A stretch of DNA of 64,000 bases from Onchocerca volvulus. Taxonomy: Eukaryota; Nematoda; Chromadorea; Rhabditida; Onchocercidae. Of the stretch, positions 5,401 through 11,319 are shown piece by piece. Below the pieces are notes generated by a model that saw only the letters and a program-made list of their open reading frames with translations, had not been told where the DNA came from and searched no databases. The stretch's first letter is position 1. Every line of letters starts with the position of its first letter. The stretch lies in contig HG738138.1 in assembly GCA_000499405.2 (NCBI GenBank), positions 5,578,888-5,642,887 on the forward strand, given 5' to 3'. The translations under genes were made by a program, and so were the position numbers.

Positions 5401-6283
5401 CATTACATAAATTAATAAATTCTTTATTTTCAATCAATTTGTCGAATTTCTGATTAATCGCTGCGTAATCCTATCGATCATGTGAGAATATTTGTTTCAA
5501 GTAATCATTTTCATCCAAAACGAAAAAAAAAAGTCATAGAATTACATTATAATTTGCAAAGATTTCATATTGTGTTAATCGATTTTTTAATCTTAATTTA
5601 TAAGAATTCATTGTATGAAAAAATTTATGACAGGAAAACACAGGAATACAATTCAAATTTAAAAAAAAGTTTTAATATTTTCAATCCATAAATCAGAGTC
5701 ATGGTTTTCTTCAAAGCTTTTATTGAAATGTAGGAACTGAAAAAAGAGGCGGATTAATAAGCAGAAAATATGTAAAAGAGAACAGATCTTTATTGTATTT
5801 TTTCTTTCATCTTGCACTTATTTATACAATTTCAATTTATTCACCCGTCTTCTTGAAATTCTATTGTTCTATGTTGAAAGCAAAGAACTGAATAATATCT
5901 GACCGACTTTAAATTATCGTATAGTTTCATTAATGAGATGAACCTTTTCTTCGATCCATCAGAAATTAATATTACAAATATTTTTAATTGGTATAAAATT
6001 TATTTCTCTTCAGTGTATTGGGAGAAAAGGAATAATAAAATAAAGACATATCTTTTTTTATATATTTTCTGATTATCAATCCGTTTATCATTTCAGTCCA
6101 ATATTTCAATAAAATGGTTTTAAGGAAACCATAAACTCTGATTTTTAAATTAAAAATGTAATTTTTTTTTTTTAATTTGCATTATATTCTTCATATTTTC
6201 TTTCATCCTTTCTTTGGCAATGAATTCTTTTTTGCATAAAGATAGAAAATCGATTGAGTGATGGAATTTTTGTAAATTATAGT

Positions 6284-6680
6284 TGTCGCCGATCTTCTTT
6301 ACCGTGACAATAATAAGGGATCATGTTTTTATCGTATTGTTATCGAATATTTCGCGGTATCTCAAACTTGGGTAATTAAACCTTTATTACAGAAATTTAG
6401 ATAACACAACAACGTACGAACAATTACAAATCAATTATATCAATAAAATAATGTAAATGACGATTTATTAATATGAGAAAATGGGGTAAAGATTATTATT
6501 AAGAAGAAAATTGAAATATCCCAGACGGAGGAACCAACCGCATCCTTCGTTAGCCTTCCTTTAAAATGATGCACAAAGGAGTATCTCCGTAACATGAAAA
6601 GGCTTTTCTTTGTTAGCGCATAAGATAGCGCTTTTATGGTACGATTTACAGTAGTTTAAAACAAAGGTTAAAGCATCACA
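6284..6680 (-). mobile_element. Truncated BEL/Pao LTR carrying SL1
   Basis: Matches the LTR at 8,768-9,325 from its TGTCGC terminus to about 6,680, where the match stops; the 5' (U3) part of the minus-strand LTR is missing. It contains an exact reverse-complement copy of the nematode SL1 leader at 6,361-6,382. The family is taken from the better preserved copy, which abuts BEL/Pao pol sequence. Confidence 0.7.
6361..6382 (-). other. SL1 spliced-leader sequence inside LTR (copy 1)
   Basis: Read on the minus strand this is the complete 22-nt nematode SL1 leader (starts GGTTTAATTACC, ends CAAGTTTGAG), preceded by TAATAAA and followed by ATACCGC. It is not followed by the GT donor of an SL RNA gene, so it is not an SL donor here. 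Confidence 0.9.
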
Positions 6681-6709
6681 TTAAAACTGTATGTTCACGA
6701 TATATTCTT

Positions 6710-7010
6710 CTTTATCTTTCTAATCATCAGTGATTAGTAATCCGTCCAGTATTGACATCGTTGGTATACTAAGTCTGGAACGAATTAATATGGATTTGCC
6801 AACTCTTAAGAACTACTACCTGTATGGTTTGTCTGATCATCCCTATGAGTGATTGGCCTAATTGTAAAGTCTGTTTGTTCGATCGATTCTATTGGTAGTG
6901 GTTGCATTATTTATGGATAGCATTTATCTGCTCTATCATTTTTTGGGAAGTTGCTGTTTCCACAGCAACAATATGCATCGATAATGACGGTCTGAATCTC
7001 AACTACATGA
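6710..7010 (+). repeat. Repeat module, copy 3 (partial)
   Basis: Partial copy just beyond the truncated LTR. It has a perfect hairpin at 6,950-6,969 (GTTGCTGT / ACAGCAAC). Compared with copy 1, both stem halves have changed together. Confidence 0.65.
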
Positions 7011-8049
7011 ATTAATAAATTCGAGTTTTTAATCGGTCTGATATTATTTTCTGATTAATCAAAATACTGTCTATCGTCTAAGAATATTTGCTTCAAGTAA
7101 TATTTTTCCTCCAAAACATCAGAAAGAAATCATAGAATTACACCATAATTTACGAAAATTCCATAATTCAATCGATTTTCTATCTTCATGTAAAAAAGAA
7201 TTCATCGCCAAAGAAAAGATGAAAGAAAATATGAAGAATACAATGCAAATTTAAAAAAAAAAAACATTTTTAATCTATAAATCAGAGCTTATGGTTTCCT
7301 TCAAACTATTTTATTGAAATATTAAACTGAAATGATAAACGGATTGATAATCAGAAAATACATGTCTTTATTATATTCTTCCTTTTCTTCCAATACACTG
7401 AAAAGAAATGATTTTATATCAATTAAAAATTTTCATGATATTAATTTCTGATGGATCGAAGAAAAGGTTTATCTGATTAATGAAACTATACGATAACTTA
7501 AAGCCGGTCAGATATCATTCAGTTCTTTGCTTTCAACATAGAAAAATAGAATTTCAAGAAGACGGGTGAATAAATTGAAATTGTATAAATAAGTGCAAGA
7601 TGAAAGAAGAAATACAATAAAGATCTGTTCTCTTTTACATATTTTCTGCTTATCAATCCGCCTCTTATTTCAGTAGCTACATTTCAGTAAATGCTTTAAA
7701 GGAAACCATGACTCCGATTCATGGATTAAAAATATTAAAACTTTTTTTAAAATTTGAATTGTATTCCTGTGTTTTCCTGTCATAAATTTTTTCATACAAT
7801 GAATTCTTCTTATAAATTAAGATTAAAAAAATCGATTAACACAATATGAAATCTTTGCAAATTATAATGTAATTTTATGATTTTTTTTTTTCGTTTTGGA
7901 TGAAAATGATTACTTGAAACAAATATTCTCAGATGATCGACAGGATTTTACAGCGATTAATCAGAAATTCGTCAAATTGATTTTTAAAAATATGAATTTA
8001 TTAATTTATGTAATGAGCTTAACTGAGATTCAAATTATCGATAATTATT

Positions 8050-8460
8050 TTTGTATATTGTTGTTATCGATGTACGCTGTTGCTATCGAAACAGCAACTT
8101 TCCAATAAATAAAAGAGCAGTTGATTGCTATCCTGAAATTTATGACTACTACCAGTAGAAACGGTCGAACACACGGACTTGAAAATCAGGCCAATCATTC
8201 ATTAGGGTGATCAAACAAACCAGACAGGTAGTAGTCCGCTTATTTTACAGAGTGCTATCAATTCGTTCCGTTCTTAGGACCAGCGATGCCAATATTGGAC
8301 AGATTGCCAATCAGTGATGATCAGAAAGATAAAGAAAAGATATATTTTGGATATGCACTCCCAATGTGATGCACTATGTTTAATCTAGCATTTATTTGTG
8401 CAATTTCGCTTTATCCAATCCTTTCTTCCTCAAAATTCGATTGTATTATGCTGAAAATGA
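8050..8460 (-). repeat. Repeat module, copy 4
   Basis: Inverted copy in the right arm of the large inverted repeat. Its hairpin lies at 8,079-8,098 with one stem mismatch. Confidence 0.65.
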
Positions 8461-8767
8461 AGAAAGGCTGAATGATATCTAAACGTTGTCTTAGAATTAT
8501 GCCAAATTTTCTGACTGAAAGTGTAGCATAATATGTTGCTTTCTTAAATTACAGCTTACATGTAATTTAAGAAGTTTCGGATGTCATTCAGTCTTTCTTC
8601 ATTTTCGCATAACATTATGGCATTTTCAAGAAGGACGGATTGAACAAATTGAAACTGCATAAAGAAATGATAGATTAAACATAGTGCGTAACAGCGGGAG
8701 TGCATTCCAGAATATATCTTTTCTTTATCATTCTGATTAGTAATCTGTCCAATGCCGGCATCGCTGG

Positions 8768-9325
8768 TGTCGCCGATCTTCTTAATCGTGACAATAATAA
8801 GAGTTCTTGTTTTATCGTTCTTGTTTTATCGTGTTGTTATCGAATGTATAGCGGTATCTCAAACTTGGGTAATTAAACCTTTATTACAGAAATTTAGAAA
8901 CACAATAACATACGAACAATTGCAAAACAATTATATCAACATAACAATTTAGATGACGATTTGTTAATATAAGAAAGAGGATAAAGATATCTTTAAAACC
9001 AAAAACCAGACGGTGGAACCAACCGTCTCCCTGTTAGCTTCCTTTGAAAAATGATGCACAAAGGCATCTTTGTAACATGATAATCTTTTCTTTGTTAGCG
9101 CTTGAGATAGCGCTTTTATGGTATAATTTACAACAGAATGAAACAAAGGTTAAGACGTTTAACACAATCATATGGCAAGCTGAAGCAACTTAACAAAGCC
9201 ATAAACTAAGCCATTTAATTTGAAACAAAGAGATAAATTTCTTGCAACCATCAACGGTTACAATTTGCTTCTTTTAAAACAAAGAAATCACTTTTGTATG
9301 ATCTTTCTCGCTTCTTTCAGCGACA
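8768..9325 (-). mobile_element. BEL/Pao 3' LTR with embedded SL1
   Basis: A 558-bp LTR bounded by TGTCGC and GCGACA. On its high-coordinate side it abuts coding sequence for the C-terminal end of a BEL/Pao polyprotein (9,326-9,500, minus), so this is the 3' LTR of a minus-strand element. The SL1 sequence at 8,858-8,879 divides it into ~446 nt upstream (U3-like) and ~90 nt downstream (R-U5-like). A short tandem duplication (ACGATAAAACAAGA unit) lies downstream of SL1. The element is inserted in a repeat module after CATCGCTGG. Confidence 0.8.
8858..8879 (-). other. SL1 spliced-leader sequence inside LTR (copy 2)
   Basis: Exact 22-nt SL1 on the minus strand, again preceded by TAATAAA and followed by ATACCGC. 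It has the same position relative to the LTR 3' end as the other two copies. Confidence 0.9.
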
Positions 9326-9500
9326 CTCCCGGGGCGAACGATCCTTTCGGCTTTGTTTTTCGTCGGAGATCTCCAAGGGATAGAGATGCCCTACTGCTCT
9401 CACTAGTTCGCTTCCACTAGCTATTCTTACCACTGCTGATCTGCTTATACCATCCTTACCCCTTATGAATCTCTGTACCCTCCCCATTTTCCAGATATTT
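9320..9500 (-). pseudogene. BEL/Pao pol C-terminal fragment (DUF5641-like)
   Basis: The minus-strand frame, read up to its stop, encodes a segment with a W-K-M-G-R-V start, an S-A-V-V-R-I-A-S-G core and an L-Y-P-L-E-I end. This is the signature of the DUF5641 domain that follows the integrase in BEL/Pao polyproteins. The frame runs into the LTR and stops at TGA formed by the LTR terminus (TGT CGC TGA). The rest of pol is missing because an N at 9,501 marks a join to unrelated repeat sequence. The purine-rich CCCCGGGAG just before the LTR is the likely polypurine tract. Confidence 0.75.
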
Positions 9501-9501
9501 N
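9501..9501. other. Ambiguous base, probable assembly join
   Basis: A single N where BEL/Pao pol sequence stops and repeat sequence (matching ~7,484 onward) starts. The abrupt change suggests a collapsed or arbitrary gap join. Confidence 0.7.
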
Positions 9502-10207
9502 AATGAAACTATACGATAATTTAAAGTCGGTCAGATATTATTCAGTTCTTTGCTTTCAACATAGAACAATAGAATTTCAAGAAGAACGGGTGAATGAATT
9601 GAAATTGTATAAATAAATGCAAGAAGAAAGAAAGAATACAATAAAGATCTGTTCTCTTTTACATATTTTCTGCTTATTAATCCGCCTCTTTTTTCAGCTC
9701 CTACATTTCACCGACTTTAAATTATCGTATAGTTTCATTAATCAGATGAACCTTTTCTCCGATCCATCAGAAATTAATATCACAAATATTTTTAATTGAT
9801 ACAAAATTTATTTCTCTTCAGTTTATTGTTAGAAAAGGAATAATATAATAAATACATATCTTTTTTTATATATTTTCTAATTATCAATCCATTTATCATT
9901 TCAGCCCAATATTTCAATGAAATGGTTTGAAGGAAACTATAAACTCCGATTTACAAATTAAAATATTATAATTTTTTTAAAAATTTACATTGTGTTCCGG
10001 CAAATTGTCTTTCATACTTTCTTTAGCAATGAATTTTTCTTTTACATTGAGATCGATTGGCATAATGGAATTTGTGCAAATTATGATGTAATTCAATGAC
10101 TTCTTTCAGGTGAAATGTTTTGGACAAGAAAGATTATTTAAAGTGTTTTCAGATGATTGACAAGACTATATAGTGATTAATCAGAAATTAACAAGCGATG
10201 AAAAAAT
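9502..10207. repeat. Third partial copy of the inverted-repeat sequence
   Basis: 9,502-9,700 matches 7,484-7,690. The orientation then flips at ~9,708, where 9,708-10,200 matches the left-arm orientation of 5,915-6,280. It is flanked by the N bases at 9,501 and 10,208. Confidence 0.65.
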
Positions 10208-10208
10208 N
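10208..10208. other. Ambiguous base, probable assembly join
   Basis: A single N exactly where a near-identical inverted copy of 4,440-4,926 begins. Confidence 0.7.
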
Positions 10209-10640
10209 GAGTCGGCTTAGATTCAGATCCATTATTGTCGTTGTAGGAACAACGACTTTCCAAAAAATGACAGAGCAAATGATTGCCATCCGTGAAAATA
10301 ATTACTACTACCAATAGAAACAGTCGAAAACACAGACTTGATAATCAGGCCAATCATTCATTAAGGTGGACCAAACAAACCAGACAGGTAGTAGCCAAGC
10401 AGATCTTCATCCATTAATTCCATTCAGTTTTAGCATGCTTGAGATGCCAATATTAGACAGATCATTAATGATCAGGGAAGACACATCATGATATGCATTT
10501 TCAATGTGATGCACGCTGGATGCACATCTTGCATCATGTTTGATCAGTATTTGTTTGTGCAATTTCGCTTTATCCAATCCTTTCTTCCTCAAAATTCGAT
10601 TGTGTTTTGCTGAAAATGAAGAAAGCCTGAATGACATTCA
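10209..10640 (-). repeat. Repeat module, copy 5
   Basis: Nearly identical to the reverse complement of 4,502-4,926, so either recently duplicated or an assembly duplicate. Hairpin at 10,237-10,256 (GTCGTTGT / ACAACGAC). A 76-codon minus frame exists because one TAA of the other copy reads AAA here; I treat it as spurious. Confidence 0.75.
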
Positions 10641-10717
10641 AACGTTGTCTCAGAATTATGCAAAATTTTCTGAAAGTGTAGCATATATGTTGCTTTCTTA
10701 ATTTACAATTCACATGT

Positions 10718-11314
10718 TGTCGCTTTTTTTCTTTCTGATAGTGACAAAATAATAAGTTGAATTCTGTTCTTCAGTTCTCACAATTTCTTCAATTTTGTTA
10801 TTTACTCACTTGGAAAACAAACCTCAAACTTGGGTAATTAAACCTTTATTATGACTAATTTGTTAATCAACGTACGCATTAACCATTACAACGATTACAT
10901 TAACAATACAATTTCGACAATATCATGAAGAAATTATAATGCAAAAAAAGAGGGGGAGATAGGTTACGGAAAGAAGAAGAATTGGTATACCACGAGCTGG
11001 TCCATCCGACCGAGCTCATGGCAGCTTGTTCGTCGAAATGATTTTTGTACTTAGGACCCTCATCTTCTTCGTGGATGGAGGTCCTGGTATCATTTTGTAG
11101 AGACAAGAAAGATCCTTTGTTGTCTCGGGAGCATGCGCTTTGGTGCGCATGAAATTGTGCTTGTGGTTAGCAGAAGATGAAAGAGAGCTTTTTTAAAGCT
11201 CATTGACTTGATAGACAAAAAATGATTTCATAGTCAACTACATCAAATATGCAATGTAAATTTAAAATAAAGAGATCACTGATTTTCTTCTTTTATCCTC
11301 CGATTTCAGCGACA
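10718..11314 (-). mobile_element. Solo BEL/Pao-like LTR with 5-bp target duplication and SL1
   Basis: A 597-bp element with TGTCGC / GCGACA ends, flanked by CATGT at 10,713-10,717 and 11,315-11,319. The sequences outside (AATTCA on the left, GATCTTATAAATCATTCAG on the right) rejoin into the unoccupied paralogous site around 4,400-4,425, which proves insertion. It shares with the 8,768 LTR the termini, the SL1 segment and a TTATTATTTGTCAC-like stretch, but is otherwise diverged, so it is a different subfamily. No internal region is present, so it is a solo LTR. Confidence 0.85.
10823..10844 (-). other. SL1 spliced-leader sequence inside LTR (copy 3)
   Basis: Exact 22-nt SL1 on the minus strand, preceded by TAATAAA. 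Here it is followed by GTTTG, so a GT stands directly after the leader. U3-like part ~470 nt, downstream part ~105 nt. Confidence 0.9.
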
Positions 11315-11319
11315 CATGT

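Follow-up and report, generated by a model that had tools for sequence, protein, structure and literature searches.

Spliced-leader sequences at a fixed place in BEL/Pao long terminal repeats of Onchocerca volvulus and their probable renewal by trans-splicing

Introduction

In Brugia malayi, 60 of the 120 spliced leader 1 (SL1) sequences found outside the spliced leader (SL) RNA arrays lie within 1 kb of a PAO element, and occasionally two SL1 copies on the same strand flank one such element; the inferred origin is that leaders were added to expressed PAO RNA, which was then integrated (Foster et al. 2020, PMC7181701; statements on this and the other cited reports refer to portions of their main texts). 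The core idea, SL1 near PAO elements by way of trans-spliced RNA, is therefore already published for that species. Here we describe a 64-kb stretch of the Onchocerca volvulus genome (contig HG738138.1, positions 5,578,888 to 5,642,887; hereafter the window, with positions counted from its first base), in which three long terminal repeats (LTRs), probably of BEL/Pao retrotransposons, carry SL1 at one fixed place. From the pattern of these and related sequences, we consider it probable that BEL/Pao RNA is trans-spliced at the SL1 copy that its own LTR carries and that reverse transcription renews the leader.

Other systems bear on this proposal. In dinoflagellate retrogenes, an SL followed by a truncated relict SL is a signature of retroposition, and extra relicts mark repeated cycles (PMC12014239). 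Cer1 of Caenorhabditis elegans (Gypsy/Ty3), another LTR retrotransposon of a nematode, can have SL1 added to its RNA, but there the leader is on a short spliced mRNA only, which cautions against generalizing (PMC3315495). The terminal-repeat retrotransposon in miniature of Echinococcus multilocularis (PMC4558846) was considered as a precedent and set aside, since it concerns competition for the leader acceptor site and not an LTR-borne leader. The term “spliced leader” does not occur in the main text of a survey of the BEL/Pao superfamily (PMC3118150).

The O. volvulus elements resemble the PAO elements of B. malayi in their association with SL1 and in the origin inferred for it, and they differ from the Brugia account in a fixed AATAAA|SL1|purine site inside the LTR, in a possible role of SL1 as the terminal repeat (R), and in remnants of older leaders, here called scars (PMC7181701). 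The original prediction for the window, made from its sequence, had left open whether SL1 in such LTRs had been described; the B. malayi report answers this in part. In the literature searched, which did not include supplements or subscription journals, neither a role of SL1 as R nor its renewal nor scars in LTRs was found to be described. Judged against that literature, what is new is the precise anatomy, how many families share it and the existence of scars; all three extend a reported feature.

Results

SL1 in three LTRs of the window

The window contains three exact copies of SL1 (GGTTTAATTACCCAAGTTTGAG; 22/22 in each case), all on the minus strand, at 6361 to 6382, 8858 to 8879 and 10823 to 10844, as the original prediction had placed them. 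No further site with up to three mismatches occurs elsewhere in the 64 kb, and no SL1 appeared in 100 dinucleotide shuffles of the window. Each copy is part of an LTR on the same strand. LTR copy 1 (6284 to 6700) is the 3' part of an LTR, with its CGACA end at 6284. LTR copy 2 (8768 to 9325; 558 nt) is full length, with the termini TGTCGC...GGCGACA; a 99.5% identical copy, L090, lies elsewhere in the genome. LTR copy 3 (10718 to 11314; 597 nt) is also full length, and the 5-bp target-site duplication (TSD) ACATG flanks it at 10713 to 10717 (3' side) and at 11315 to 11319 (5' side), which identifies it as a solo LTR from a genuine insertion. No TSD was seen around copy 2. At a cut of 70% identity, copies 1 and 2 belong to cluster 8 and copy 3 to cluster 7 of the genome-wide set described below.

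In all three LTRs TAATAAA directly abuts SL1 on its upstream side, with AATAAA, the presumed poly(A) signal, at 6383 to 6388, 8880 to 8885 and 10845 to 10850 (minus strand). The end of SL1 lies 77, 90 and 105 nt from the LTR 3' end in copies 1, 2 and 3, respectively, and its start lies 446 nt (copy 2) and 470 nt (copy 3) from the 5' end. These measurements confirm the predicted placement of 77 to 105 nt from one end and ~450 to 470 nt from the other, as well as the predicted TAATAAA. The window has no Rfam match at the gathering threshold, that of the SL1 RNA gene (RF00198, ~100 nt) included. A genome search for the Pao peptidase (150 of 154 candidates scored) gave no match inside the window, so the window LTRs look solo or truncated.

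BEL/Pao elements as carriers

A coding element with SL1-bearing LTRs is L063, which contains the Pao peptidase A17 (PF05380), RVT_1, the H2C2 integrase PF17921, DUF5641, DUF1758 and DUF1759. Its LTR pair is 92.5% identical, and exact SL1 follows AATAAA in both LTRs. By its domain set L063 is a BEL/Pao LTR retrotransposon (superfamily survey, PMC3118150). L063 belongs to cluster 5 and not to the window clusters 7 or 8. The assignment of the window LTRs to BEL/Pao, made through related LTRs elsewhere, is a probable one. Among the LTR candidates of the window family that were scored (40), by eye at least three (C2:14402392, C5:7027787 and C5:10175476) lie ~2 to 3 kb downstream of a Pao domain on the same strand. 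BEL/Pao elements are expected to have TSDs of 4 to 6 bp and LTRs with TG...CA ends; TSDs of this size surround window copy 3 (ACATG) and L090 (GTATG), and such ends are seen in window copy 2 (TGTCGC...GGCGACA).

Searching the genome for the Pao peptidase yielded 141 matches, 113 of which were used; the other 28 were second fragments of domains already counted. Among the 76 matches on C1 to C5, 10 have an exact AATAAA+SL1 site within 5 kb on the same strand (random expectation, 0.44) and 3 have one on the opposite strand (random expectation, 0.42). Most Pao matches have no such site nearby. Five 1.5-kb segments at the expected places of 3' LTRs had no SL1-like match (up to 6 errors); their coverage of the LTRs was not established, and they were left uncounted. 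PF17919, intended as a Gypsy control, had 0 matches here and also 0 in the control genomes, and is hence uninformative.

SL1 sites in the whole assembly

The assembly (94.7 Mb, 115 contigs) contains 434 exact SL1 sites. Of 100 SL1 places listed, 95 fall in one 313-bp tandem array of contig C1 (C1:212-242 kb). Five of its units, at locus L001, give matches to the SL1 RNA family of Rfam. In those SL RNA genes that were seen, ATT precedes SL1 and GTAATTG comes after it. Exact AATAAA+SL1 occurs at 144 sites, where the next base is G (100), A (40) or T (4) and never C. Another 284 exact sites, counted together, comprise SL RNA genes as well as variants of the AATAAAA type, and 6 have neither A before nor G after SL1.

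We fetched 78 distinct exact sites outside the SL RNA genes, 23 through the LTR search and 55 through searches with exact SL1. The leader is preceded by AATAAA at 72 of them, by AATAAAA at 4, and by AATGAA and GATAAA at 1 each. GTAATTG follows SL1 at none of the 78. The source of the LTR leader was therefore not an SL RNA gene but most likely the leader in its spliced form.

Irregular junctions were seen as well. L010, L031, L042 and L045 have an extra A between AATAAA and SL1 (AATAAAA|GGTTT), possibly a variant of a strand-transfer junction. In L122 (SL1 at minus-strand offset 1506), ~200 nt of the unique 3' region (U3) of the LTR is missing by eye relative to the window family; the upstream part, ...TTTTAAATAAA, joins SL1 directly with a TAAA microhomology at the join, perhaps through a misplaced strand transfer.

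Conservation of SL1 and its flanks

The 78 sites, compared over 150 nt upstream and 40 nt downstream of SL1, fall into 25 clusters at a cut of 80%, 13 at 70%, 4 at 60% and 2 at 55%. The 22-nt blocks beside SL1 agree at 0.53 to 0.66 among 12 representatives, compared with shuffled values of 0.55 in the unique 5' region (U5) and 0.60 at the U3 end. The representatives, like 55 of the 78 sites, were found through exact SL1 and are exact by choice, which detracts from this comparison as support for renewal; copies found by U3 alone therefore provide a fairer test. In a U3-only search with the L063 type, exact AATAAA+SL1 was present in 10 of 13 copies, where 1.33 would be expected under U3-like divergence (the match reaches the U3 end in all 13, with twelve at 88 to 92% and one at 73%), and in 4 of 6 distant relatives, where 0.07 would be expected (their identities, 73 to 87%, are taken from a companion piece). 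For the L068 type, with 40 of 133 candidates scored, 14 of 32 copies were exact against 1.75 expected. These tests leave out the query copies and keep the sister LTR of each query element; rows that fell short of the U3 end or were other pieces were dropped (18 of 38 in the L063 search and 7 of 40 in the L068 search).

For the window family, a search with 6285 to 6700 as the query had 367 candidates; the 40 that were scored contained 46 matches. SL1 is exact in 21 of 40, against 3.69 expected under U3-like divergence. Over 41 LTRs the mean pairwise identity is 0.934 in SL1, 0.881 in the 22-nt block before AATAAA, 0.878 in the block after SL1 and 0.855 further upstream, and the best sliding windows (0.94 to 0.95) overlap AATAAA and SL1 themselves. 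The leader is thus better conserved than its flanks, as had been anticipated, by a modest amount.

Scars behind the leader

Trans-splicing at the LTR's own leader could use more than one AG. At the final AG of SL1, the old leader would be replaced without a trace, while use of another AG would leave a remnant of it behind the new one: the inner AG (CCCAAG|TTTGAG) would yield SL1 followed by TTTGAG, and the junction AG (AAAG|GTTTAATT) would yield SL1 followed by 21 nt, that is, SL1 joined to its position 2. The TTTGAG class was noticed by chance; the 21-nt class was predicted first and then searched for.

SL1+TTTGAG+U5 is present at all four of the 144 AATAAA+SL1 sites that have a pyrimidine (T) after SL1; three of these belong to cluster 8 and the fourth to cluster 1. 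Their nearest relatives among the 78 fetched sites (99.7, 92.1, 91.6 and 86.9% identical) all lack the insert. One scarred copy is L090, a solo LTR between 5-bp duplications of GTATG; over the 558 nt that it shares with window copy 2, the scar is the sole indel besides two single-base inserts. The 21-nt scar was found in one copy, L124, whose two leader parts and AATAAA have all decayed. When 81 distinct SL1-like sites were scanned for SL1 ends duplicated over 4 to 21 nt, only four TTTGAG, one ATTGAG and one 21-nt case emerged. As a control, 77 nearest-neighbor pairs were found to contain 93 inserts of at least 4 nt, 7 of them exact tandem duplications (over ~417 nt); 4 of the 7, the TTTGAG scars, lie in the 22 nt of SL1 itself (binomial, 0.0002, with the events treated as independent).

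The TTTGAG scars fit renewed trans-splicing and are the best evidence in these sequences that it may have continued. As in the dinoflagellate retrogenes, a leader has been copied into DNA and a new one stands before a truncated old one, but the dinoflagellate relicts are in host genes and served as the signature searched for, whereas here the carriers are LTR elements and the old leader would usually vanish without a trace (PMC12014239). By analogy, nematodes would have their equivalent of the relict leader in the TTTGAG scar.

Other leader ends invite comparison. The ATTGAG case, L064, has this sequence right after SL1, one mismatch from TTTGAG, and is perhaps an older, mutated scar. In cluster 11 the starts of U5 vary in a manner suggestive of SL1 having been joined to downstream AGs of U5.

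Discussion

A proposed cycle of leader renewal

The element RNA would start in U3, upstream of SL1, and host trans-splicing would join SL1 at the AG that closes the LTR's own copy; the outron together with the old SL1 would be swapped for a new SL1 directly before U5. At the other end, where the 3' LTR would contribute U3-AATAAA-SL1, the RNA would be cleaved and polyadenylated inside SL1 or immediately behind it, which is where the usual spacing from AATAAA puts cleavage when SL1 abuts the signal. Minus-strand transfer would then use SL1, present at both RNA ends, as a short R, and U3-AATAAA-SL1-U5 would be restored in the new DNA. The leader, rewritten from host SL RNA, would stay exact while U3 and U5 diverge. 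Such a cycle would account for the fixed place of the leader, its exactness, the divergent flanks and the scars, and also for the purine after SL1, a purine after a 3' splice site being normal.

The placement of SL1, the number of sites, the divergence of the flanks, the purine rule and the scars are established. We infer from the DNA pattern that trans-splicing caused the scars, as well as the start site, the poly(A) site, the identity of R with SL1 and regular renewal. The predicted origin, a leader added by trans-splicing and fixed by reverse transcription, gains partial support from a fixed position in 13 clusters with dissimilar flanks, from neighbors that are not those of SL RNA genes, and from the TTTGAG scars. 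The more specific reading, in which SL1 supplied in trans by the host SL1 small nuclear ribonucleoprotein is the R repeat and the LTR-borne leader is the acceptor through which SL1 is renewed in each cycle, is tentative, with the chances somewhat against it.

In retroviruses and LTR elements, to our knowledge, R is encoded, and a host-supplied R would differ from this. If the proposal is true, an LTR retrotransposon borrows a piece of host RNA as its terminal repeat and thereby has it repaired in each cycle. This would explain the SL1 sequences near PAO elements in B. malayi, provide DNA-level fossils of trans-splicing, and connect SL trans-splicing with reverse transcription in a way that can be tested. 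Under the more specific reading, the element would be unable to do without trans-splicing by its host, and any change in the host leader would oblige the elements to follow. For annotation, a genomic SL1 can mark an LTR, and reads trimmed of SL1 may mis-map to LTRs.

Points against the proposal and competing explanations

Several results weigh against the proposal or narrow it. An upstream start, required for an outron, is weakly indicated: a TATA-like motif, defined after the sequences had been viewed and placed 124 to 201 nt upstream of SL1, occurs at 21 of 78 sites (shuffled mean, 2.8; maximum, 7), but this amounts to 6 of 13 clusters (shuffled, 2.3; maximum, 6) and to 0 of the 39 sites of window clusters 7 and 8, and plain TATAAA is not enriched (22 sites versus 17.7 shuffled). 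The shuffled control thus weakens any argument that a TATA box proves such a start. The ideal nematode acceptor is UUUUCAG, from which the SL1 end, GTTTGAG, departs. Pao elements here often have SL1, though not all of them do: in the Pao element L123 (G000:C4:8991800-9001700), the two LTRs, 98.7% identical across 464 columns, contain AATAAA, carry AATAAAGGG... and lack SL1. SL1-bearing and SL1-free BEL/Pao elements therefore coexist. For Cer1, moreover, the 8-kb RNA does not receive SL1 at the known site (PMC3315495).

Conservation near SL1 also leaves room for a single ancient capture of SL1 in an ancestral LTR, kept by selection for a poly(A) or R role and not renewed at present. By single linkage 68 of the 78 sites join in one group (the others number 8, 1 and 1), and cluster representatives agree over 190 nt at a median of 0.61, compared with 0.51 for shuffled pairs, which is compatible with a shared ancestor; common descent explains part of the sharing of SL1. 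AATAAA is more conserved in the window family (0.976) than SL1, and the U3 end (~36 nt) matches at 89 to 94% among distant L063 relatives. Expectations from U3 divergence therefore overstate the special status of SL1, and a conserved block around AATAAA explains part of its excess. The trait may also predate the split from B. malayi, where SL1 lies near PAO elements (PMC7181701). Selection for a poly(A) or R role would not, however, obviously need all 22 leader bases, and an ancient capture predicts neither four TTTGAG scars with scar-free nearest relatives nor the 21-nt scar; we regard it as unlikely.

Equally unlikely is that the scars arose by slippage between AG dinucleotides during replication or reverse transcription and say nothing about splicing. 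Both scar classes are tandem duplications bounded by AG...AG, which polymerase slippage could produce, and the flanks contain three further exact tandem duplications. On the other hand, four identical events fell within 22 nt and three different ones in ~395 nt, and the duplicated SL1 ends at the 81 sites were confined to the TTTGAG, ATTGAG and 21-nt cases. Far less credit is due to SL1 as a translation aid or cap mimic within the 5' leader of an ordinary transcript that is not trans-spliced. The TATA-like motifs in 6 clusters, weak as they are, would place SL1 inside a conventional R, but an internal SL1 would carry no trimethylguanosine cap, and both the scars and the fixed abutment to AATAAA would be left unexplained. 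Capture from an SL RNA gene or cluster struck by an insertion has practically no likelihood; such genes are abundant in the C1 array, yet GTAATTG is missing from the LTR sites, which are scattered and nearly always follow AATAAA.

Repeats around the window LTRs

Long imperfect inverted repeats lie between and beside the LTRs of the window. Positions 5613 to 6283 pair with 7142 to 7797 at 91%, and 6813 to 7508 pair with 9710 to 10394 at 76%. They belong to another repeat, in which the LTRs seem to be nested.

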